This document shows positions 6,415-39,902 of a stretch of DNA of 40,357 nt, one piece after another (within the stretch, counting starts at the first letter, position 1; every line of letters begins with the position of its first letter). The notes beneath the pieces were generated by a model. The model worked only from the letters and a program-made list of their open reading frames with translations, was not told the origin of the DNA and searched no databases. This DNA is from a virus. The position numbers and the translations under genes are program-made. Location: the IMG/VR virus record IMGVR_UViG_3300044846_004757, positions 1-40,357 of that record. The stretch is one strand, 5' to 3'.

Positions 6415-6612
6415 TTAGCCTACAAAGATTGAGTTAAAATGTATGACAACGTCCCACGCGTCGCAGTCGCTTGCCTTTACTCGTTTAATCCATTCCGTCT
6501 TTGACTGCTTAAGAGTTAAGCCGTTGTCAGGGCTTAATATTACATGGGCGTAAAGTGTTGTATCTCTTTGAAGTGCTGAGATAAATTCTTTTCTTGTTAG
6601 TGTTGTGTTCAT
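6415..6612 (-). CDS. First gene of leftward arm, small hypothetical
   Basis: 65 residues, starting MNTTLTRKEFISALQRDTTL. Helical N-terminal half, Trp-containing C-terminal half (SKTEWIKRVKASDCDAWDVV). It is the first gene left of the divergent region and so probably among the earliest expressed. Function unknown. Confidence 0.65.
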   Translation of the reverse strand: MNTTLTRKEFISALQRDTTLYAHVILSPDNGLTLKQSKTEWIKRVKASDCDAWDVVIHFNSIFVG

Positions 6613-6776: not shown

Positions 6777-6792
6777 TGTTCCACGTGAAACA
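6777..6792. other. parS-like site 1
   Basis: TGTTCCACGTGAAACA, identical over 16 bases to the Bacillus subtilis Spo0J (ParB) site. Near-perfect palindrome around CACGTG. Confidence 0.85.
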
Positions 6793-6805
6793 ACGTGAAA
6801 AGTAG

Positions 6806-6821
6806 TGTTCCACGTGAAACA
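6806..6821. other. parS-like site 2
   Basis: TGTTCCACGTGAAACA, a second exact 16-base match, 29 bases from site 1. A half-site (CGTGAAAA) lies between them at 6795-6802. Confidence 0.85.
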
Positions 6822-6843
6822 ATGCAGGGTTGAAACGGTCAAA

Positions 6844-6859
6844 CGTTCCACGTGAAACA
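6844..6859. other. parS-like site 3
   Basis: CGTTCCACGTGAAACA, 15 of 16 matches to the consensus. Confidence 0.8.
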
Positions 6860-6958
6860 AGAAAGGAACAAACGAACGACCAACACGAAAGGGTGAAGGA
6901 AAAAACACGATGAACATTTGTCTTCCAAATTCACAGAACTCACTTTTCTCGTTTTATT

Positions 6959-6974
6959 TGTTCCACGTGAAACG
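6959..6974. other. parS-like site 4
   Basis: TGTTCCACGTGAAACG, 15 of 16 matches; followed by site 5 after 7 bases. Confidence 0.8.
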
Positions 6975-6981
6975 TGTTGAT

Positions 6982-6997
6982 GGTTCCACGTGAAACT
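6982..6997. other. parS-like site 5
   Basis: GGTTCCACGTGAAACT, 14 of 16 matches; the central 14-base core is intact except at its first base. Confidence 0.75.
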
Positions 6998-7000
6998 ATT

Positions 7001-7033
7001 TGTTCCACGCGGGGGGTTGCAACCCGTGAAACG
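7001..7033. other. Split parS-like site 6
   Basis: Left half TGTTCCACG (7001-7009) and right half CGTGAAACG (7025-7033) are separated by 15 bases that include the palindrome GGGTTGCAACCC. It looks like a parS site interrupted by an insertion; a further CGTGAAACG follows. Confidence 0.6.
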
Positions 7034-7169
7034 TGAAACGAAACAGGGGGGGGTACCAAGGGAAAAGTTGGTGAGTGTCGACCTTCTCCATCACCCGCTA
7101 TTTTTTTGAAATTTGAGTCTGAGGTCTTGGTTCGGAATTTTATGCAACCGTGGTTCTTTGGATTCGTAT

Positions 7170-7177
7170 TATCTTTG
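7170..7177 (+). promoter_or_regulatory. Candidate late promoter -7 box
   Basis: TATCTTTG matches the Bacteroidota -7 box exactly and ends 19 bases before the small terminase ATG. No convincing -33 TTTG is present at 19 bases upstream, so an activator may be needed. Confidence 0.5.
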
Positions 7178-7196: not shown

Positions 7197-7700
7197 ATGA
7201 AAGACGACAATAAGAAAATTGACAAGGACGAGCAGAAGAAGTTGGATGCGATTGATTTGGTTACGCGTGTTTGTGCCCATTATGAGAGCGGCAATTACAC
7301 CATTGCTTCGTGTTGTAGTAAGGAGGGTTTTAGCGATAGAGCCTTCCATAAGTACTGCGCTAAGTATACGGAGTGTTCTGACATATATAAAAGCGCCAAA
7401 AGAGAGGCATTAGCGGCATATAAAGGCGAGCTGATAGAGAAGGCTCAGTCAGCCTTAGAAAAGGCCATAGAAGGCTATTATATCGAAGAATCAGAGGTGG
7501 TTGAACGCTTCAATAAGATAGGCGACCCAGCAGGAAGGGTTGAGAGCAAGAAGAGGGTGTTTATTAAGCCTAATGTGACTGCTATCATCTTTGCGTTAAA
7601 GAACTGTGACCCAATGAGTTGGAACAATGAAGGAATGCACGAGGCTGTTGCTGATGAGCAAGTGTTTAAGATTGGCGACCAAGTTATTAAGTTTAGCTAA
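7197..7700 (+). CDS. terS: Terminase small subunit
   Basis: 167 residues. A charged N-terminus is followed by a helix-turn-helix region (about residues 27-65: VCAHYESGNYTIASCCSKEG then GFSDRAFHKYCAKYTE) typical of small terminases, which use such domains to bind the packaging site. The rest is helical and could oligomerise. It is the first rightward gene and lies two small genes before the large subunit. The family shows low sequence conservation, so the call rests on the HTH, size and position. Confidence 0.8.
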   Translation: MKDDNKKIDKDEQKKLDAIDLVTRVCAHYESGNYTIASCCSKEGFSDRAFHKYCAKYTECSDIYKSAKREALAAYKGELIEKAQSALEKAIEGYYIEESEVVERFNKIGDPAGRVESKKRVFIKPNVTAIIFALKNCDPMSWNNEGMHEAVADEQVFKIGDQVIKFS

Positions 7701-7938: not shown

Positions 7939-8217
7939 ATGTTTGAGCTGCCTAAATATATTAGAGGTAGGCTTAGCTTTACTGTTGAGGAGCTTGAGCT
8001 TTTGATTGAGCTTATATGCAAGGATTGTGTAAGCATTAAGATGGCTGATAGGTTTATACAGGCGAGGCTAACTGATTATGAGTTGCTTTATCGTAGTAAT
8101 ACGATGAATGACTTTGAGATGGAGGATTATATGGACTGGAAAGATGTTGAGACTTACTTTGACAGTCACAAATTATCTTTTGAGCGTCAATATTTTAAAA
8201 GAAAACTATGGGTGTAG
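7939..8217 (+). CDS. Small hypothetical protein before large terminase
   Basis: 92 residues, helical; begins MFELPKYIRGRLSFTVEELE. Its last 10 bases overlap the large terminase start, so translation is probably coupled. Not recognised. Confidence 0.65.
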   Translation: MFELPKYIRGRLSFTVEELELLIELICKDCVSIKMADRFIQARLTDYELLYRSNTMNDFEMEDYMDWKDVETYFDSHKLSFERQYFKRKLWV

Positions 8218-9485
8218 TATTTGAGCCTTTTCCAAAACAAGAGCAGTTTATTAGGGCTGCTCTAAGTGGTGACTATAACTACTTGATGTACGGAGGAGCA
8301 GCGGGTGGCGGGAAGACGTATGTAACAATGGCTATTGCTATTATGCTTGCTAAGTTCTACCCTGGAAGCAGGTCTTTTGTAGTGAGGGAAAGTTTGCCAC
8401 GTCTTAAAAAGACTTCTATCAAAAGCTTTTTTAAGCTATGCCCTAAGTCTTTTGTCAAAAAGTACAATCAGCAAGACAAACTTGTGATGTTTAAGAATGG
8501 TAGTGAATTACAGTTTATCAGTGAAAACTACCAAAATGACAAGGATTTGACGCAGTTTGATGGATTGGAAGGTAACTTTTTTTTCCTTGAAGAAGGACAA
8601 GAGCTGCAAGAAAGGACGTTTAACAAAGCTATCCTGCGCTGTGGGCGTAATATCATTACTCCAATGCCTCCTAAACTCATCTGTGTTACTTGCAATCCAT
8701 CCCAAAACTGGACTAAACAAAGATTCTACAAGCCTTACGTAGAACAGAATATGCCAGATAAGCATTTCTATTTACCTGCTACAATGGCTGATAATACTTT
8801 ATTGCCTGAAGACTACATTGAGAGCTTGAATAATTTGGATGAGATTACTCGTGCAATCTTTGTGGATGGTAACTGGGATGCAGTTGATGTTGACAGACCA
8901 TTTGCCTATGCCTTTGATAAGGAAAGGACAGTAAGGCCAAATCTAAAGTACAACCCTAATGAAGACTTGTACTTGTCATTTGACTTTAACGTAGACCCAA
9001 TTACTTGCATAGCTGCTCAGCACTATGGTGGCAAGATTAGAATACTCAAAGAGTTTAGACTACGTAACTCAGACATCTTTGCTTTATGCGATGCGATTAA
9101 AGCCGAGTATGGCAACATGCCTTTTATAGTCACAGGTGATGCAAGTGGAGCAAATCGTAGTGCGATGACCAAAGGTGCGATGAACTACTACATGATTATC
9201 AAAGAACAACTGCAAATCACACGAAGCGCATTTAGAGTACCATCCTTCAATCCATCTATTAAGAACTCTCGCGTTTTACTTAACTCGCTACTTGAAAAAC
9301 ACCCTGATTTTTTAATTGATGCAAGTTGCCAGTTCTTGGTTGGTGACTTAATGGCTGTTGAAAGCAATGAATCAGGGGCGATTGACAAGGCAAGAGACGC
9401 AACAAAGACTCACTTGCTTGACTGCTTCCGCTATTATTTGTGGTCATTTCATAGTAACTTTGTGAAATATCTAAAACAGCAATAA
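8208..9485 (+). CDS. terL: Terminase large subunit (ATPase/nuclease)
   Basis: 425 residues. The ATPase half has Walker A GGAAGGGKTY at residues 29-38 (Lys36) and a Walker B-like FFFLEEGQE at 124-132, where the usual Asp-Glu is Glu-Glu. The nuclease half has LSFDFNVDP near residue 257, VTGDASGANRS near 308 and RDATKTHLLDCFRYYLW near the end, matching the RNase H-like acidic triad of large terminases. It pumps DNA into the procapsid and cuts it. Start ATG overlaps the preceding gene by 10 bases. Circular redundancy of the window would fit headful packaging. Confidence 0.95.
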   Translation: MGVVFEPFPKQEQFIRAALSGDYNYLMYGGAAGGGKTYVTMAIAIMLAKFYPGSRSFVVRESLPRLKKTSIKSFFKLCPKSFVKKYNQQDKLVMFKNGSELQFISENYQNDKDLTQFDGLEGNFFFLEEGQELQERTFNKAILRCGRNIITPMPPKLICVTCNPSQNWTKQRFYKPYVEQNMPDKHFYLPATMADNTLLPEDYIESLNNLDEITRAIFVDGNWDAVDVDRPFAYAFDKERTVRPNLKYNPNEDLYLSFDFNVDPITCIAAQHYGGKIRILKEFRLRNSDIFALCDAIKAEYGNMPFIVTGDASGANRSAMTKGAMNYYMIIKEQLQITRSAFRVPSFNPSIKNSRVLLNSLLEKHPDFLIDASCQFLVGDLMAVESNESGAIDKARDATKTHLLDCFRYYLWSFHSNFVKYLKQQ

Positions 9486-10412: not shown

Positions 10413-13400
10413 ATGGCAGTTAAGAACGTCACTTTTGAAGTAACAGCAAATACACAAAATGCGCAAGCGTCTTTAAGTGCGCTTATTGCACAGCTTGACC
10501 AAATAAAGAAAAACTCAACCATTTCTTTTACCCAATCAACTGGCAATATTGATGCGCAGATAAAGTCTTTAACTACAAAGCTTGATAAACTTGCAAGTGA
10601 TAATCAAAAGCGTATTGATAGTGAAACAAAAAGTGTAACTGATAATCAAAAGACACAGACAAACGCTGTAAAGAGTGCTATTGATGAGCAGAAAAGAGCT
10701 TATGAAAACTTTGCAAAGTATAATGCTGATGTTTTAAAAAAGGAGCAAAAAGCTTTTCAGGAAGCACAAGCGGCAAAAATAAAAGCAGCAAGAGACACTA
10801 AAAAAGCTGAGCGCGAACAAATCGTTCAACAGGCGGCTACTGATAAGACTTCTAACAAAAAACAAGTAGCATCAACTGCTTATGCGCAGGTTTCTGAATC
10901 AGTAAAACAGCTTAATGCTCGTTCAAGAGAACTTGGCGCGCAGCTTATACAACTTGACCAAGCTGGTCAAAAGAACTCGGTTACTTATAAGTCATTAGCA
11001 AAAGAATATGCAACAGTAAAAGCTGAGGCTGATAAGGCAAGTGCAGCTTTAAAACAATTAAATAGCAATTCTAATTTACAACCAAGCGTACAAAAGTTAG
11101 GTGGTCTTTCTGGTGCTATCAATTTTATATCACGCTCAGTTGCTAACTCATCTGCAAACTTTGTACGCCTACAAAACGTAATTGCGCGTACAGGTGTTGC
11201 TCTTGGTGCTGTATCTATTGGTGCTGCTGTGCTTTCATTTGGACGCGCTGCTATTAATGCTGCAAAAAATTATGAAACCCTAAGTGTTTCGTTTGGAACT
11301 TTGATAGGAAACGCAGTGCTTGCTCAGCAAAAGATTAAAGAGCTTCGCACTTTTGCCGCAGAAACTCCATTTACAGTTGATGATGTATTTCAAGCATCAA
11401 GAACGCTTTTAGGATATGGTGTGACAGTTGGTGAACTTATTCCTACTATTAAAACTCTTGGTGATGTTGCAGGTGGTGTTGGCGTTCCACTTGAAAGACT
11501 TGCTCTTGTATTTGGGCAGGTACGTGCAGCAGGTCGTTTGTATGGACAAGATTTGCTTCAGCTCGTTACAGCTGGCTTCAATCCACTTGCTGAAATATCA
11601 CGTACAACAGGAGAATCTTTTGATTCACTTAAAGACAAGATGCGTAAGGGTTTGATTACGTTTGATGATGTTCAAAACGCATTTAAGACAGCCACAAGTG
11701 AAGGTGGAAAGTTCTTTAATCTTACAAACGCCCTTGCCAATACAACTACTGGTCGTCTTGCCCGTTTAAGTGAAGAGTATAATGAACTTTTAAAACAAAT
11801 TGGTGAAGGATTGCTTCCTGCATTTAATGGTCTTATTAATTTTGGTAGGGCTTCACTTGAGTTTTTTAGAGAACTACCAAAAACAATTAAAGAAAATTCA
11901 ACAGTATTTACTCTTTTAACAGCGGCAACAACAGCTTTAACCGCTTCTTATTTTGCTAACTCTTTAAACGTAGTATCTAATACCGTTAAAATAGGAGCAA
12001 ATACAGTCGTTAAAATTGCTAATAGAGTTGCAACTGCTGCACAAGCTGCTCAAAATGTAGTTGCAACACAGGGCATATCAGCTCAAACTGTTGCTCAAGC
12101 AGGTTTAACTTTTGCTACCAGAATAGGAACTTCTGCCATTAATGCTTTTAAAGCGGCTTGGGCATCTAATCCTCTTGGTCTTATTGTTACCGCTTTAACG
12201 ACTGCGGCTGCCGCATGGTATTCTTTTAGTGACGCGGTTGACACAACTACTGATAACTTTATTAATGCTGATGAGGCATTTAATGAGTTTCAGGTCAATT
12301 CACAAAAGGCTATTGATTCAGAAACAGCTGCTACAAAAAAGTTATTTGATACAGCAAAAGATGGAAATAAGTCTTTTAGTGAAAGACAGAAAGCTGTTGA
12401 TGAGATAAATAAAAAATATCAAACAAGTATAAAGCTTACGGGAGACCAAGAGAAAGATGTAAAATTAATTGAACGTGCTTGGCTTGATGTTGAACAAGCA
12501 ATTGTAGCTGTAAATCAAGAAGCAGCTTCTACCGCAATAATTGCTAAATTAAATGACCAAATAGCAGATGTACAACTTCAACTTTTGAATTTGGGTTCTG
12601 AGGCAGGTATTAAAATTCCAATTGAATTAATTACATCAGATGAAGAAAAAAGTGGAGGATTTGAAAAAACAAAAGCATTAATTCAGGGTAGACTTGATGA
12701 GTTAAGTAAATTAAAGCCAAGCAATTTGGTAATAGGAGAAGCAATTGCATTCGGTGGATTTGGCCCAGCTTCAACAGCTGGATTACTTTCTTTTAATGAA
12801 GCTATTAATAGTCAAATAAATGCAGTTGAGCCACTTAATTTACAACTTGAGAAGTTAATTGAATCTTATGGAACGCTTGGGGCATTTGCACAACAAGCAC
12901 TTCCTAAAGGTAGTAATATTGCCACTCCTACTATTGATGAGGATGCTGCAAAAAAAGCAGCAAGAAGATTAAAAGAATTTGAAGAGCAGTATATTTCATT
13001 CCTTGACCGTATTCGCAAAAACAATGAAGACATTAAAAAACAAAACATTGAATTTGAGTTTGTTAACGCTGCTGATTTTGAAGAGGAGATTATTAAGTTG
13101 CAACAACTTGATAGAGTTAATCAAGACACAGTAGACAGAGAGATTGATAGAGAGATTGAATCAGTTCGACAAAGAGAGATAACTGAACAACAAAAGAATA
13201 CTCTTATATCTCAACTTGAAATTATTCGTGGACAAGAACAGGAAAAAAGAGCTAATGATTTAGAAAAAAGGCTTTATGAAATTGAACGCGATGGTCTTGT
13301 TGCGAGAAGAAAGCTTGCTAACGAACTTGGCGACCTTTATGCAGGACTTACAATTCAAAGGCTTGATACAGAAATTGAATCTCTTGACAGGCTCAGAGAT

Positions 13401-16819: not shown

Positions 16820-19800
16820 ATGAGCATACATAGGTTTGTACTTACAGATGGATTGAACCCAGTAGAATCAGGATTGAATAATGGATTATTATGTAACTGT
16901 TCTTTTTGTCAAAATCCAGTTTTGACCTTTGTAAATCAACACAATACTCCTCTTACACTAACAAATGTAATTATTGATACAGCATCTTTTGGTGATGGTG
17001 TGGCTGTTTACCTATGGGAGATTAATGGGAATCCTATATCATATCCATATACTGTTTTTGAAGGGCAGTCTATTCAAATAGAATTTGAGGTCTGTTATAA
17101 TTATCAACCTACCTCAGCTTTTTCAATAACCTTAGTTACAGCAGAGCATAATAGCGACCAAGCTTATGAATTTGATACTGAATGTCTTGATATTGATGAT
17201 TTTTTTTCTCAATTAGTTGTTTTTTTCGGAAGTGTTCCAGCTGATACAACAGCAAGTCAAACTATTCAGTTCACCAATAACTCAATGGCTCCCTATGTTG
17301 TTGCTGTTGATTTTGAAGGTTGTGGAGCAGTTGGACTTGCAATGGTTCCAAGTGAGGTTACGGTGCAACCTGGTCAAACAGTAGATTTAGATTTTGAATG
17401 GACACCACCAAATGAAGGTCAAACATTAAATTGCGCTGGTTATTCTTGTACTACGGCATTATTATTTAATGGAACATCAACAGCAGCTCCTTTAATCCAT
17501 AGATTAGAAATAGTAGATGGTGGGTTAAATCCCAATGGCACTAATTACCTTAATTGTTGTGTAGCTTATCAAAACACATTTGTAACATTCCAAAACACAC
17601 ACAATACACCTGTAACTTTAAATGACTTTTTTATAGTTGATGCAGGAAGTGGTGTGAATGTTTCATTTGTTGCTCTTTCAGGACAGCCACCATCATTTCC
17701 AACAATAAACCCTGGAGAAACGATTGTATTTGAGTTTTCGGTTGGTTGGGACACAGTAACAAGCCCATTGTCTTCTTGGACTTTCCAATTAGACACAATT
17801 GAGCATGGTAATGAAGCTATATACACATTTGCAATGGAGTGTGTTGATTTATCTTCATTATTTAGTTCTACTTCATTTGACTTTTCAAATACAGTTGTAA
17901 ACTCTACAAATACCAAGTCTGTTACCGTAAACAACATAACAATTGGTGAATTAGACATAAACATAGATACAAGTGGATGTGGTTCTCCTGACCCTGAACA
18001 ATTTCCATACCCATCAATAATACCACAAGGTGAAATTGGAACCATGACTTTAACGTGGTCGCCAACTAACGTTAGTGATTCTGTTTCTTGCGCTCCATCT
18101 TGGTGTACTGTTGATTTTAGTATTACGGGAGATGTTTTTGAAGAGCCATGTGAATGTCTTTGTTGCTTAGATATTGAAATACGCACAGAGGGGAACTATT
18201 TGCCTCCTCAAACTGGATTTTGCGATACAACTCTTTTGTATCAAACAGCAAGTATCTTAGAGCAAAAGACTGTTGTTTTTAAGATGAAGTATGATGTTGG
18301 TTTGGTAACTGGATGGAGTATTCAGTTTAATCCTTCATTATTTAGCTTTACTTGCTCAGAGGAGTTTGATGGAACTACTGATTTCCCTACAAAATATTAC
18401 ATTCAATATTTATCAGGAGCGCATCCTGATGGAGTTGCTCAGACAATGAGTTTTGTTGGCGCAGGGATGAATGCTTTGAATTTAAAGAACTGGCAAGTAT
18501 TTTTTAGACCTGTAAATGCTATAAACGGCACATTCAATATTGAGTTTACGTTTTATATGCTTCAGGACTATGAAGGGTTTATCACAAATATGACTTGGTC
18601 TAACTTAAACAAGTTTAAAAGGTCTACTATATCATCTCCTACTGATTGGCTAAATACTTTCCAATCAGTATACAACATTAAAGATAAATTTCTTCAGGCC
18701 GCTTTCTTACTTAATGACCCAGCTACTCTTGTAGACGGCTCTATTTTCAAGTGTGTTACTTACACTTGCTCAAATTATGCAGCAAGATTTTATAACAAAA
18801 GCTTAGGAGATAGCCCATCTGAATTTTTAAATCCTTCATTTACCTTATATAGAAATGGCATTGCTGTTTCTAATTTTTCAACTTTACAGAATACGCAAAT
18901 CAAATTTGAAGTTGATATACCTGCTTTTTATGGTAACTCTGCTTCCGTTGTAATCTTTCATCTTTTTAACGCAAGCAGTGAAGATAACAATGTTGATTTT
19001 TTAAATTCATCGGACACATCAAGAACAAGGGTATTTACACTTACTGGAACAGGGGTTTTAGATAATCATTTTATAAGACCATCAACATTTGCAAGTGGTA
19101 GCGGAAGTTGTACTTGCACTATGTATGTGGACACAGGTCTAAACCTAACTGATAAATATAGAGTTGCTGCTATTGTTTATGGTTCAGCTGGAACGATGGT
19201 AAACACATTTATATCTCAAGAAATAAGTGTTACCAATTTTCCAACGAGAGATTGCGATTGCAAGCCTGAAACCACATCAGAATTTGGTCAATATTGGCAA
19301 TTGCATCAAGAGGATTGCTTTATGCCTGTTGGAAAAGAAAGAATAAATCATCGAGTTACTGTTACTTCAGGTGATTTTATCATTTGTATGCGCGACTTGG
19401 GTATTACAATGACCGATTGGAGAAGTCAATTAACATCTGTTAAATTAAACATTTACAAGAGAAAGCAAAACTTCCCAACCAATAGTCAAACTACATTTTT
19501 CCAATACGCAAGCTATCAATCAGTAAGAAACCCTGGCTTCTTCGGTGGATTTAATAACTTAGGTGGAATAGGAAGTTTAGATTCGGGTGGAATTGTAGTT
19601 CAGGATTCAGGGGCTAATGAAGTAGATATTTTTATAAATAACATAAGAGTTCCTTGGGAGAATAATTTGTTTTCGGGTTCTTCAGGTCAGGTATTGGTTG
19701 CAAACAACATATCTTACATGCTAAGAACACCTGCTGGTGCTCTTTCTGCTTCCTATGTTTCTACTAATAATATTCTTGAATCATGGATTGGCAAAGATAT

Positions 19801-20692
19801 TTATTTTGAATATGTTTTTTCCTTTGATTTAGAACCTCAAGTTGGTGAAACATTCATTTGGAATGTCGTTAAGGCTTATAAAGTAAACGCGATTGACTTT
19901 GAGCCAGCTAACTCAGGATTTGACCAAGTAATTACTGATGTTACAATTGAAGGCATAGACCCAGCTACGGGAATTTATGTTCCTATTGAAGAGCCAATAT
20001 GCTATTCGGATTATGAAAGTATAAAGTTGACTTATCAAGCAAACAGAGAAGGTAACTTCATATTCTTTATGGAACCTGAGCCTTTTGGCAAACCTTATCT
20101 GATTGAAAATGATGAAACTTTTAGTCCTGCGTTGATGGCACAGCAAAGTAATCCTATTGTAATATCAATGGACACTTCTTTTGACCCCGTGACATTTACA
20201 GCATCGGTTATTTTAGATTCACAACAATTAGTAAATAACAAAAAATATCTTTTCTGCGGATACATTAGCTTCCCTGATGCTGCTGCTATTTGTGAGTATT
20301 TTTTGTTACACCTTGACCATGTTGGCTCAGGAATAACTATGGCTCCTTTGACAACAGGAGATACATTCCAATTGATATTTAATAATTCAGGCTTAAATAG
20401 ATATAGATACGGAACTTCTCAAAGCGGAGAAACAACATTCCCTGTCCCTGGAGATACATACGTGTTTGAATATTCATTTAATGTTCCAACGACACGAATT
20501 ATGAATGTGTGGCTGGGTCAATGGAGTTTTTCAGGTGCTCCACAGGTAATTCTACCAATTGGCTCAACATCAGGAAGCGTTAGTTTTGTTTGGGGTGCAT
20601 CAATAAACGGAGAATGGACTGTTCAAATTACAACTGGAACTGATATGACTGCTATTGGAAGCTTTAAAATTGGAAACGCTTTGTGTCCATAA
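16820..20692 (+). CDS. Large tail/fibre protein with repeated ASH-like domains
   Basis: 1290 residues. Residues about 4-215 and 226-435 are a tandem duplication, each beginning HR(F/L).(L/I).DG.LNP and containing FVNQHNTPLTLTN / FQNTHNTPVTLND. Within each copy the second part (TIQFTNNSMAPYVVAVDFEG; VTVQPGQTVDLDFEWTP) resembles ASPM-SPD2-Hydin (choice-of-anchor D) immunoglobulin-like folds. Cys clusters (CNCSFC; CECLCCLD) occur at domain joins. The rest is long beta-rich, Asn/Thr/Ser-rich sequence typical of fibres. Likely a receptor-binding or tail-tip structure; exact role inferred from position. Confidence 0.65.
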   Translation: MSIHRFVLTDGLNPVESGLNNGLLCNCSFCQNPVLTFVNQHNTPLTLTNVIIDTASFGDGVAVYLWEINGNPISYPYTVFEGQSIQIEFEVCYNYQPTSAFSITLVTAEHNSDQAYEFDTECLDIDDFFSQLVVFFGSVPADTTASQTIQFTNNSMAPYVVAVDFEGCGAVGLAMVPSEVTVQPGQTVDLDFEWTPPNEGQTLNCAGYSCTTALLFNGTSTAAPLIHRLEIVDGGLNPNGTNYLNCCVAYQNTFVTFQNTHNTPVTLNDFFIVDAGSGVNVSFVALSGQPPSFPTINPGETIVFEFSVGWDTVTSPLSSWTFQLDTIEHGNEAIYTFAMECVDLSSLFSSTSFDFSNTVVNSTNTKSVTVNNITIGELDINIDTSGCGSPDPEQFPYPSIIPQGEIGTMTLTWSPTNVSDSVSCAPSWCTVDFSITGDVFEEPCECLCCLDIEIRTEGNYLPPQTGFCDTTLLYQTASILEQKTVVFKMKYDVGLVTGWSIQFNPSLFSFTCSEEFDGTTDFPTKYYIQYLSGAHPDGVAQTMSFVGAGMNALNLKNWQVFFRPVNAINGTFNIEFTFYMLQDYEGFITNMTWSNLNKFKRSTISSPTDWLNTFQSVYNIKDKFLQAAFLLNDPATLVDGSIFKCVTYTCSNYAARFYNKSLGDSPSEFLNPSFTLYRNGIAVSNFSTLQNTQIKFEVDIPAFYGNSASVVIFHLFNASSEDNNVDFLNSSDTSRTRVFTLTGTGVLDNHFIRPSTFASGSGSCTCTMYVDTGLNLTDKYRVAAIVYGSAGTMVNTFISQEISVTNFPTRDCDCKPETTSEFGQYWQLHQEDCFMPVGKERINHRVTVTSGDFIICMRDLGITMTDWRSQLTSVKLNIYKRKQNFPTNSQTTFFQYASYQSVRNPGFFGGFNNLGGIGSLDSGGIVVQDSGANEVDIFINNIRVPWENNLFSGSSGQVLVANNISYMLRTPAGALSASYVSTNNILESWIGKDIYFEYVFSFDLEPQVGETFIWNVVKAYKVNAIDFEPANSGFDQVITDVTIEGIDPATGIYVPIEEPICYSDYESIKLTYQANREGNFIFFMEPEPFGKPYLIENDETFSPALMAQQSNPIVISMDTSFDPVTFTASVILDSQQLVNNKKYLFCGYISFPDAAAICEYFLLHLDHVGSGITMAPLTTGDTFQLIFNNSGLNRYRYGTSQSGETTFPVPGDTYVFEYSFNVPTTRIMNVWLGQWSFSGAPQVILPIGSTSGSVSFVWGASINGEWTVQITTGTDMTAIGSFKIGNALCP

Positions 20693-26461: not shown

Positions 26462-27256
26462 ATGCCAATTAATATAGATAATTGCATAGAACAAAACAAA
26501 ATCACTGAGTCTTACAAGTTGATAACAGATTGCTGTTGTCAAATTTCATGTTATTTGACTAATCAGGATGATTTTCCTATAACCATTTTAGATTTATCTT
26601 TTTCTTCAACATTTGGTGTTGGAAACATATTTATTGATAGTATTCCTCTTTCCTTGCCATTAAACTTAGACCCTTTTCAAGTTGTTACACTTGACTATAC
26701 TGTTTGTGCACCATCAACTGAAAGTGTTGACACGCTTACTTTAACAATTCTTGATAATGTGGCAGGTATAACAGATTTCATTTATTATCTTGAATCTATT
26801 TTGCCATCTTCATTTATCACTCCAACTTCATTGAATTTTGGAAATGTTGCGGTTGGAAATGGCTCTGCTCTATATATAAATGTTCCTGATACACTTCTTT
26901 GTTGCAATGACTTTTATGTTAGCACTCTGACAGCTCCTTTTGGAGATGTTGGCGGTGTAACCGTATGTCCAGGTGGAGGAAGCCAACAAATCATGGTAAG
27001 CTTTGCTCCAACTGAACTTGGTCTTGCAACTCAGGATTTGACCATAACTATCAATGAGTGTAATTCTATCCTTGTCCCACTTTCAGGTAACGGCATAGAG
27101 CCACCATCAGGAAGCACAACTCCACAAAAGAATAAGGTTGACCAAACCACAAGAGTTGAAGCTTGCTCTCCTCGCACATCAAACAATCGCTGTGAAACAG
27201 CAAAGACAATAAAATCAGCTATTAAGGCTAATGCAAGGCGATTCGGTAAACGATAA
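26462..27256 (+). CDS. ASH-domain virion protein
   Basis: 264 residues. Starts with a Cys-rich segment (DCCCQISCYLTNQDDFPITI). Residues about 115-215 read as an ASPM-SPD2-Hydin/choice-of-anchor D domain: TSLNFGNVAVGNGSALYINV, then QQIMVSFAPTELGLATQDLT and LVPLSGNGIEPPSG. The C-terminal 45 residues are basic and low complexity. It shares this fold with the large fibre protein at 16820-20692 and probably decorates tail or head. Twelve Cys. Confidence 0.6.
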   Translation: MPINIDNCIEQNKITESYKLITDCCCQISCYLTNQDDFPITILDLSFSSTFGVGNIFIDSIPLSLPLNLDPFQVVTLDYTVCAPSTESVDTLTLTILDNVAGITDFIYYLESILPSSFITPTSLNFGNVAVGNGSALYINVPDTLLCCNDFYVSTLTAPFGDVGGVTVCPGGGSQQIMVSFAPTELGLATQDLTITINECNSILVPLSGNGIEPPSGSTTPQKNKVDQTTRVEACSPRTSNNRCETAKTIKSAIKANARRFGKR

Positions 27257-33356: not shown

Positions 33357-33644
33357 TTAGTCTTTTATAAAGCTCCCACCGACTGTTTTGCCCGTTCTAC
33401 TCTTGATTGTATCATAGGCTGATTCAAGAGCGGCATCGTAGTCGATTCCAAGCTGTTTGGCTAAGATAATCAAAACCACTTGAATGTCGCCTATGGCATC
33501 TATCTGTTCAGATGGCTTGTTCTTGAGAATTGCTGCGCAAAGCTCACCTACTTCCTCCATCAACTTGATGGTTTGTGCTTTTGCGTTCTCAGGCTTGAGT
33601 AATTCTCGCTGTTCAGCCCATTTAAGTATATCTTTTCTATCCAT
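33357..33644 (-). CDS. MazG-like nucleotide pyrophosphohydrolase
   Basis: 95 residues. Carries KLMEEVGELCAAILKN (EExxE) and EQIDAIGDIQVVLIILAKQL (ExxD..D) typical of the all-alpha NTP pyrophosphohydrolase fold, then a short C-terminal end SRTGKTVGGSFIKD. Phage versions are thought to hydrolyse NTP/dNTPs or signalling nucleotides and so shift host metabolism during infection. Single-domain length is normal. Confidence 0.88.
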   Translation of the reverse strand: MDRKDILKWAEQRELLKPENAKAQTIKLMEEVGELCAAILKNKPSEQIDAIGDIQVVLIILAKQLGIDYDAALESAYDTIKSRTGKTVGGSFIKD

Positions 33645-33991
33645 TATTCTGCAAATTGATTTATTGGCACTTCAAGTATGTGTGATATTTTATTTAGCGT
33701 TTCAATGCTAAACTTTTTGCGTTTTACATTCTCAATCTTTGAGTATTCACCCTGGGTGACACCCATTTGTTCTGCCACCCAAGCTTGCGTGTAATTGCGG
33801 CCAATCCTTATCTCTTTTATTTGGCTTGCTATCTCACTCGGGTCTTTTAGCTTGAGACTTTTCTTTACCTCACGCAAGACAACATCAATAGCTTTGTAGA
33901 GTGTTTGTGGTTCGTAATAATAGTCATCATACTCGCCACTTCGCCAAAGTTGATTCTTCTCAAGTATTTCTATCGCCTTCTCTAACTTCAT
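33644..33991 (-). CDS. XRE-family HTH transcriptional regulator
   Basis: 115 residues. An N-terminal extension (about 1-50) precedes a Cro/CI-type helix-turn-helix from about 57: IKEIRIGRNYTQAWVAEQMG, VTQGEYSKIENVKRKKFSIE, then LNKISHILEVPINQF. Probably a phage regulator; there is no peptidase domain as in CI/LexA repressors. It overlaps the MazG gene by one base. Without an integrase, a lysogeny repressor is not the default reading. Confidence 0.85.
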   Translation of the reverse strand: MKLEKAIEILEKNQLWRSGEYDDYYYEPQTLYKAIDVVLREVKKSLKLKDPSEIASQIKEIRIGRNYTQAWVAEQMGVTQGEYSKIENVKRKKFSIETLNKISHILEVPINQFAE

Positions 33992-38600: not shown

Positions 38601-39474
38601 TGGGTTGTCGGTTTAACCAGTTGTTGAGTGTGAGATAGACGCTGACATACTTGCTTGGGAGTTGCTTAAAGTTCTCCATTCGCATTAGCACTTCAGCAAT
38701 CTGCTGGTTGGTGAATTTGCAAAGAAGCTTTTCGCATTCGTCTGATGAGATTTGTTTTTTGAGTTTTGAGACTTGGGGGAAGTTGTCCTTGATGTAAACT
38801 TGAAGCGGGTGACTGATTACGATTTCAGATTTCCTTTCTTTCTTTTCATCTTTTCTTTCTTTATCATTACTTAAAGGTATATTATTATTATAACCTATAT
38901 TATCTATATTATCTATATTAATATTATTATATATATATATAGGGTCATTTTTTTCATTTTGCTTAACCAAAATCTGATTTTGCTTAACCAAATTTACGTT
39001 TTGCTTATCCAAAATTTCATTTTGCTTATCCAAATTTGGATTTTGCTTAAGCAAATTTGAGTTTTGCTTAACCAAATTGTCAACCAAAATTTCATTTTGC
39101 TTATCCAAAAGTTTCAGATTCGGATTGCCACCAAGCCTACCTGAGACACTTCTTTTCTCACTTATTTTCTGCGCATTGACCATTGTCTTAGAAAAATAAC
39201 GATTTTTTTCATCTTTTTTTATGATGTTGTATCGTCTAAGCTCCATAAAACAATTATCAAATTCTTTTGCGTCATAACCAAGTGTTTTTTGAAGCATTTC
39301 TTCGTCCAAAATTGTATCTTCAATAAGCAAATAACCTCGCTCGTTTGAAAGGTGCATCAGGCACAGAATATCAATCCAAAGACCCCTTGCACCCGCGCTG
39401 CACAAACGCAAGCGGGAGTCGCTCATCCAGTCGATAGGATAGAACGCAAAGGACTCTTTTTTTGACTTTCTCAT
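38533..39474 (-). CDS. Replication initiator protein containing origin iterons
   Basis: 313 residues. N-terminal 110 residues form a winged-helix initiator-like domain (FYPIDWMSDSRLRLCSAGAR; GLWIDILCLMHLSNERGYLL; FMELRRYNIIKKDEKNRYFS), as in phage O/DnaD-type proteins. Residues about 120-175 repeat LxKQNxxL, encoded by the 21-bp iterons. Next is an Asn/Ile-rich stretch encoded by the AT tract, then a C-terminal domain (about 215-300) likely to contact the loader. It should bind the iterons within its own gene and open the adjacent AT tract. Confidence 0.78.
   Translation of the reverse strand: MRKSKKESFAFYPIDWMSDSRLRLCSAGARGLWIDILCLMHLSNERGYLLIEDTILDEEMLQKTLGYDAKEFDNCFMELRRYNIIKKDEKNRYFSKTMVNAQKISEKRSVSGRLGGNPNLKLLDKQNEILVDNLVKQNSNLLKQNPNLDKQNEILDKQNVNLVKQNQILVKQNEKNDPIYIYNNINIDNIDNIGYNNNIPLSNDKERKDEKKERKSEIVISHPLQVYIKDNFPQVSKLKKQISSDECEKLLCKFTNQQIAEVLMRMENFKQLPSKYVSVYLTLNNWLNRQPNESPSNKHNNRGANYEDALRNF
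38879..38943. other. AT-rich tract, probable DNA-unwinding element
   Basis: About 65 bases almost free of G and C, made of TAT/ATA repeats including a TA run of 12 bases near 38930-38941. It abuts the iteron array and encodes Ile/Asn/Tyr/Asp, an unusual composition that suggests selection on DNA rather than protein. Confidence 0.65.
38957..39110. repeat. Iteron array, probable replication origin
   Basis: Seven copies of TTTTGCTTAnCCAAAw start at 38957, 38978, 38999, 39020, 39041, 39062 and 39095. The first six are spaced by exactly 21 bases (two helical turns); the seventh follows after 33, with a partial copy between. Next to an AT-rich tract and inside the initiator gene, this is the layout of lambda ori in gene O. 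Confidence 0.8.
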
Positions 39475-39902
39475 TGTGAAATTACACTTAAAAAACGTTC
39501 GTACTTTTTATCCTTCTTTCTGCGCTGTCCATTGACGATTTTAGAGACGAAAGTCAGGCTAAATTCATCATGGTCAAGACAAAAAGTTCTTACATTTTTA
39601 AACTTAGAAAATATGATGGCGCGGATATTTTTACGCTCCTCTTCAGTCATGATTTGGTTAGACATTTGGTTAAGCAAACCGTCAACCAAAACTTTTATCT
39701 CACTAATCATCTTTTCCTCTGTCTCTTTTTTAAGTCTACCGACAAAAAGCATGTTCATTTTAGAGTAAGAAATATTTGCAAGCAAGGCAAAGTTTTGGAT
39801 TGAGCCATACTTGGAACGGATGTCTTTTTTCAGTTCTTTTCTGATTTCAATCATTGGATTTGTGATTTGTACTTCCACAGTTGTTTCTACTTGGTTATTC
39901 AT
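39471..39902 (-). CDS. Protein with duplicated HTH-like domain
   Basis: 143 residues, basic. Two halves look alike: about 20-68 (ELKKDIRSKYGSIQNFALLA; NISYSKMNMLFVGRLKKETE) and about 90-140 (NIRAIIFSKFKNVRTFCLDH; FSLTFVSKIVNGQRRKKDKK). Each fits a small helix-turn-helix, like paired Cro/regulator domains. It lies between Bet and the initiator and carries an inverted copy of the iteron (39665-39678). It may bind the origin or control the arm. Confidence 0.65.
   Translation of the reverse strand: MNNQVETTVEVQITNPMIEIRKELKKDIRSKYGSIQNFALLANISYSKMNMLFVGRLKKETEEKMISEIKVLVDGLLNQMSNQIMTEEERKNIRAIIFSKFKNVRTFCLDHDEFSLTFVSKIVNGQRRKKDKKYERFLSVISQ
39665..39678. repeat. Inverted iteron copy
   Basis: TTTGGTTAAGCAAA is the exact reverse complement of the iteron core TTTGCTTAACCAAA, located 555 bases from the array within the neighbouring gene. 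TTTGGTTA at 39653-39660 is a half copy. Confidence 0.6.

Follow-up and report, generated by a model that had tools for sequence, protein, structure and literature searches.

A dense array of host-type parS sites next to the terminase genes of a Bacteroidota phage without ParB

The IMG/VR record IMGVR_UViG_3300044846_004757 was analysed over its whole length of 40,357 bases (the window), and it belongs to a tailed phage, here called the window phage. Between its divergent arms lies a cluster of sequences that match the bacterial chromosomal centromere parS, which raises the question of what a phage that encodes no ParB gains from them. The 14-base parS core GTTCCACGTGAAAC is present without mismatch five times at positions 6777-7040, each time on the + strand. 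Sites 1 (6777-6792) and 2 (6806-6821) agree with the 16-mer TGTTCCACGTGAAACA at 16/16 positions, while site 3 (6844-6859, CGTTCCACGTGAAACA) and site 4 (6959-6974, TGTTCCACGTGAAACG) agree at 15/16 and site 5 (6982-6997, GGTTCCACGTGAAACT) at 14/16. The departures are confined to the outermost base or bases, and the core is identical in 5/5. Downstream of site 5, a split copy on the + strand (7001-7033) consists of TGTTCCACG (7001-7009) and CGTGAAACG (7025-7033), separated by a 15-base insertion that overlaps the palindrome GGGTTGCAACCC, and it is followed by a further + strand half-site CGTGAAACG (7032-7040). These copies, including the split one and the half-sites, had been described in an earlier sequence-only reading and were all recovered. 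The sites are spaced 23-115 bases apart, and the array is not a simple recent tandem duplication, since the flanks of the five cores differ.

The cluster stands far above the background of the genome. Matches with at most three mismatches numbered 12 in the whole window against 0.47 expected, with a maximum of 4 in 100 shuffles, and a perfect core appeared in 0/300 shuffles of the intergenic region. Half-sites (GTTYCAC/GTGRAAC) reached a density of 22 per kb at the array and 0.25 per kb in the remaining genome, and no further site with two or fewer mismatches was found elsewhere in the window-phage genome. Compared with the chromosomal-type parS TGTTNCACGTGAAACA, two sites match at 16/16 and five at the 14-base core. 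The array sites are thus most likely genuine parS, as judged from their sequence, and the window phage is the densest parS example in this survey. GC skew tracks gene direction in the window phage and does not place a replication origin at the array.

A circular overlap of 135 bases (1 mismatch) joins the two ends of the record, and RecT stays in frame across it. The genome is therefore complete at 40,222 bp, which makes the absence of ParA and ParB meaningful. That neither gene occurs in the 40 kb had been noticed from the letters, and profile searches agreed: ParB_N (PF02195) gave no match in the window phage even at E = 10, and Pfam scans of about 40 ORFs yielded no ParA, ParB or integrase. 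The phage therefore lacks the own ParA or ParB gene that a self-encoded phage or plasmid ParABS would have, and it combines parS with the absence of a phage ParB, which is one feature of phi29-type hitchhiking. No replication, copy-control or lysogeny gene serving a plasmid state was identified in it. The leftward (early) arm is headed by a gene of unknown function (6415-6612, - strand) on one flank of the array, and the leftward genes include SSB, RecT, a replisome-organizer-like protein, VRR-NUC and MazG. On the opposite flank, the late arm opens with the terminase small subunit TerS (7197-7700, + strand, phrog_309, E 1.4e-10), which starts 157 bases past the last half-site. The large subunit TerL (8208-9485, + strand, phrog_979, E 2e-29) and a tape measure protein of 1538 residues (at 10413) lie further along.

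Cellular genomes with a related TerL belonged exclusively to Bacteroidota. A putative -7 promoter element of the late packaging arm, of the TATCTTTG type (TAnnTTTG, 7170-7177, + strand), was read from the sequence and is kept in three close relatives (L015, L020, and L023); TAnnTTTG is a promoter element typical of Bacteroidota. Judged by its cellular TerL relatives and its late promoter type, the window phage is a Bacteroidota phage. The core GTTCCACGTGAAAC was found in 52 of 118 Bacteroidota genomes, and the reversed control in 2. A Taibaiella MAG contains one ParB and four exact 16-mers in the same orientation, 0.7-1.2 kb apart, which lie within 2.6 kb and adjoin mnmG (gidA). The comparison with the parS of a candidate host, which had been suggested as a check, thus returned a 16-mer identical to that of the phage, with the host group matched at the level of the phylum, and the claim that the sites are of the chromosomal type holds, as Bacteroidota chromosomes use the same 16-mer. 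Phage and chromosome share multiple copies in one orientation and differ in that the phage has no parAB and a far tighter spacing. The canonical site was absent from three Cytophagales-type genomes and from Larkinella, so the host of the window phage is probably not among them. In the Taibaiella MAG, one chromosomal parS overlaps a predicted gene start (L212, 8320-9003, MFHVKQ...); gene starts may have been called incorrectly in that region, or the site may be read as coding.

Given the identity of the sites, the lack of a phage ParB, and the use of the same 16-mer in the host phylum, loading of host ParB onto the phage DNA is very likely. From this we infer binding, spreading, and a benefit to the phage. 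Host ParB would recognise the array as a host-type centromere, a parS cluster; once phage DNA enters the cell, host ParB-CTP clamps would be loaded on the five cores, from which they would slide outwards along both arms of the genome. The phage genome would thereby join the ParA/nucleoid machinery of the host, possibly together with SMC. The benefit would most likely be retention: the genome would sit with the host origins and be inherited by the daughter cells or, in another form, be held over in slow-growing or starving cells. Neither integration nor phage-encoded par genes would be needed, as is the case for phi29 with Spo0J. For this reading as a whole, a host-type centromere that loads host ParB, most likely for retention, we estimate a probability of about 0.6. 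As the use of the array, we favour retention or partition in the absence of par genes, at even to slightly better than even odds, since it is the known use in phi29 and the window phage has no integrase.

To our knowledge, phi29 is the sole precedent for host-type parS on a ParB-less phage. Meijer et al. in 2005 reportedly described its parS sites together with the host Spo0J, with host ParB carrying the phage genome into the spore. Four exact parS sites are present in phi29 (EU771092), which like the window phage is a ParB-less virus with exact host-type parS. However, the phi29 sites are scattered, some of them within genes, whereas those of the window phage are densely packed, in the same orientation, into a single intergenic region by the terminase genes. 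The host of phi29 is a sporulating member of the Firmicutes, whereas for a Bacteroidota phage spore trapping is an impossible use. P1, mycobacteriophages, and the Staphylococcus epidermidis phage Lacachita also have partition sites on phage DNA and no integrase, but they encode their own ParA and/or ParB and the window phage neither. Mycobacteriophages of this kind are phage-plasmids or extrachromosomal prophages with their own parABS (PMC7157519), while Lacachita encodes ParB (PMC10286716). A literature search, with preprints and many journals outside its range, brought up the phi29 citation in PMC8597652 and no other account of parS in phages that lack ParB. Host-type parS on a ParB-less phage is thus already known from phi29, while the dense same-orientation array in a Bacteroidota phage, the evidence of a widespread and patchy trait, and the recurrent location by terminase genes or in terminal repeats are new.

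Paired parS, defined as two sites 1-31 bases apart, occurred in at least 119 IMG/VR stretches, with 0 for the reversed-motif control. These stretches fall into about 43 families, an approximate number because the tblastx grouping of 50 loci may be chained. Outside ORFs of at least 80 residues lay 66% of the paired sites, though 85% of the DNA was in ORFs. ParB_N gave no match in 71 of 78 paired-parS records tested and in 22 of 27 records of at least 30 kb; many viral records are fragments, in which the absence of ParB is weaker than in the window phage, and some parS-bearing viral contigs may in fact be pieces of host DNA. Searches of named phages with 30-mers built on the two principal parS variants matched 181 and 326 records (152 and 227 at ≥99%), and among the matches listed for a reversed-motif probe none lay on the motif half. 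Many of the parS-bearing phages have just one or two sites. When the intergenic region was compared in full with named phages by BLAST in distant mode, every match was driven by parS.

The hosts of isolated phages with exact parS span many ParB-bearing genera, with Bacillus, Listeria, Lactobacillus, Enterococcus, Pseudomonas, Vibrio, Arthrobacter, Gordonia, and Microbacterium represented; gut microviruses were found as well. Phages of Pseudomonas putida KT2440 are among those with an exact parS, one of them being vB_PpuM-Kassivere (PP496416). Enterobacterial hosts accounted for 0/120 rows, drawn as two evenly spread samples of 60 in which related phages are not independent. Two gammaproteobacterial families are without chromosomal par genes (PMC7022226), and as enterobacteria lack them, this zero serves as a natural negative control. 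On these sequence counts, parS in ParB-less phages appears widespread and patchy, and with so many other ParB-less phages carrying the site, recruitment of host ParB is probably the best reading for the window phage. If host ParB does load, a few dozen bases of DNA would be enough to give a virus partition, positioning, or persistence without a gene, and gene-based lifestyle predictors would have nothing to detect. Carrier or pseudolysogenic states in phages without integrase and par genes would then have a possible explanation, and the phi29 case would be extended beyond sporulating Bacillus to many phyla. Two bajarodino viruses (PQ006134.1 and PQ006099.1), microviruses of 5.8 kb and too small to fit a ParB, showed ten BLAST parS matches each, which correspond to about five palindromic sites.

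Recruited host ParB could also act mainly as a regulator, with clamps that spread over the divergent early and late promoters and lower their activity, possibly in response to the state of ParB or CTP in the host. The array lies between divergent arms at about 95-160 bases from a probable promoter on each side, and in Pseudomonas aeruginosa ParB at intergenic parS represses neighbouring genes (PMC7022226). However, the late TAnnTTTG element is overlapped by no parS, and the sites of other phages are found in terminal repeats or genes and not generally at divergent promoters, which makes regulation unlikely as the main use, although it and a role at the packaging end are the chief rivals of retention.

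The nearest large ORF to parS was a terminase in several unrelated phages. The distance from parS to TerL was 38, 188, and 434 bases in L177, L116, and L160, which share one TerL family, 60 bases in L100, 14 bases in L152 (on the downstream side), and 277 bases in L099, while in L182 parS lies 413 bases from TerS. A marine family (L177, L112, and about 30 other loci) carries twin parS sites, TGTTTCACGTGAAACA N7-9 TGTTCCACGTGGAACA, about 38 bases 5' of TerL, in an alignment that is biased because the loci were chosen by motif; spacing and site variants differ among its subfamilies (L116, L138, and L160). To remove this selection bias, the marine TerL family was sampled again independently of the motif, and a perfect upstream site was present in 11 of 31 loci at ≥70% identity and in 1 of 35 below 70%. 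One-mismatch upstream sites were absent from this sample, and just 2 sites occurred across 182 kb of other sequence. Such all-or-nothing sites at a constant position fit a selected, optional element. Like the window phage, the marine family has perfect parS in a short pre-terminase gap, no ParB found, and a patchy distribution. It differs in its one or two sites at about 40-140 bases from TerL and in its terminase family, and it has no sequence relation to the window phage.

Terminal repeats are a second recurrent location. An exact parS lies within the direct terminal repeat of phiPsa374 (NC_023601.2, 389-404), and Vibrio phi 3 and Ochrobactrum OH phages have parS in their terminal repeats. 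In the related Pseudomonas phages PN09, psageK4, and UAVern, an exact parS was seen near the start of the record. Beside the array of the window phage, a G8 tract (7046-7053, + strand) is the sole G or C run of seven or more in the genome. Most close relatives have a run at the same position, of G in some and of C in others, and unrelated parS phages (L099, L182/L191, and L082) have a G or C run near their sites. The G8 tract may be part of the packaging site.

This placement would suit ParB at a putative packaging end, with a role in protecting or organising the genome end, in loading SMC, or in marking concatemers by the terminase site. The terminase neighbours listed above (TerL in L177, L116, L160, L100, L152, and L099, TerS in L182), the terminal-repeat sites of phiPsa374-type, Vibrio phi 3, and Ochrobactrum OH phages, and the unique G8/C8 tract by the array, with its counterparts in L099, L182, and L082, all point in this direction. 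However, in many cases no non-coding gap is larger than the one before the terminase genes, so this location may be permissive and not causal, and phi29 and Listeria phages have their sites elsewhere. Such a function is improbable as the explanation of the array. A broader proposal is offered tentatively, as a possibility short of even odds: host-type centromeres by the packaging end could be a strategy that ParB-less phages use in general, have evolved more than once, and exchange freely, and in which host ParB (and SMC) would be loaded onto terminal DNA soon after entry and would anchor, segregate, or protect the genome.

A related TerL is encoded by 71 viral loci, about 20 of them at 94-97% identity. 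Conservation of the sites in related phages, which had been put forward as a check on the sequence-only reading, was not found: none of these about 20 loci has a perfect parS, and no parS with two or fewer mismatches occurs at the array position among the 71. In L015, L020, and L023 the entire intergenic region can be aligned to the window phage, with the common blocks TCCTAAAAAAAAGTCACTTTTAT; TGAAGG..AAAACGCGAT..ACATTT; and GGGGGTACC..AGGGAAAA. A DNA pattern for this shared backbone returned the same three loci and nothing further. At the places of sites 2 and 4 they have palindromes that are 2 or 3 mismatches from the core, with degenerate palindromes aligned to site 2 in all three and TTTTCATGTGRAACG-type sites aligned to site 4 in L015 and L023, and their best parS match has a P of 0.007-0.12. 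The aligned region and the degenerate palindromes place the array in an old phage backbone, in which the perfect parS would be recently gained, or lost in other relatives. The array reads as an optional, fast-evolving element. Loss of the sites in close relatives had been named in the sequence-only reading as a refuting result, but it is not taken as one here, as the unrelated marine family is equally patchy, with sites perfect or absent. The function cannot be essential, given that close relatives are without perfect sites.

The degenerate palindromes at two aligned positions would also fit operators of a phage-coded regulator, with a coincidental match to parS, and the phage does code for an XRE-type protein (33644-33991) and an HTH protein (39471-39902). 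However, two 16/16 matches to the host centromere are very improbable by chance, and the identical 16-mer occurs in dozens of unrelated phages. L012 and L033 encode the HTH protein at 69-73% identity but lack the sites, which is evidence against this protein as the binder; the co-occurrence of sites and cognate regulator across relatives that a repressor and its operator should show failed for this protein. A phage repressor that uses the palindrome as its operator, raised earlier as a finding that would overturn the parS reading, is thus very improbable. It is hard to credit that the array is a decoy that titrates host ParB and disturbs host chromosome segregation: five sites per replicating genome would exceed the few chromosomal sites, but many phages have just one or two, and the phage has no evident gain. 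A functionless relic of captured origin-proximal host DNA, or a misassembly, would account for the array missing from relatives and for the single orientation seen also in the Taibaiella chromosome, but is scarcely tenable for perfect cores with diverged flanks, spaced at 23-115 bases against 0.7-1.2 kb in the host and set inside an intergenic backbone common to relatives.

Some minor observations concern other parts of these genomes. Further relatives of the window phage have other palindromes, found by eye, that are centred on CCGG or GATC. An early protein of the window phage (5375-5668) matches Pfam Phage_TreK, a Staphylococcus phage terminal-repeat-encoded protein, and has homologues in L020 and L023. 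Large proteins with Asn/Pro-rich beta-type repeats, by eye like choice-of-anchor D, are encoded at 16820-20692 and 26462-27256.
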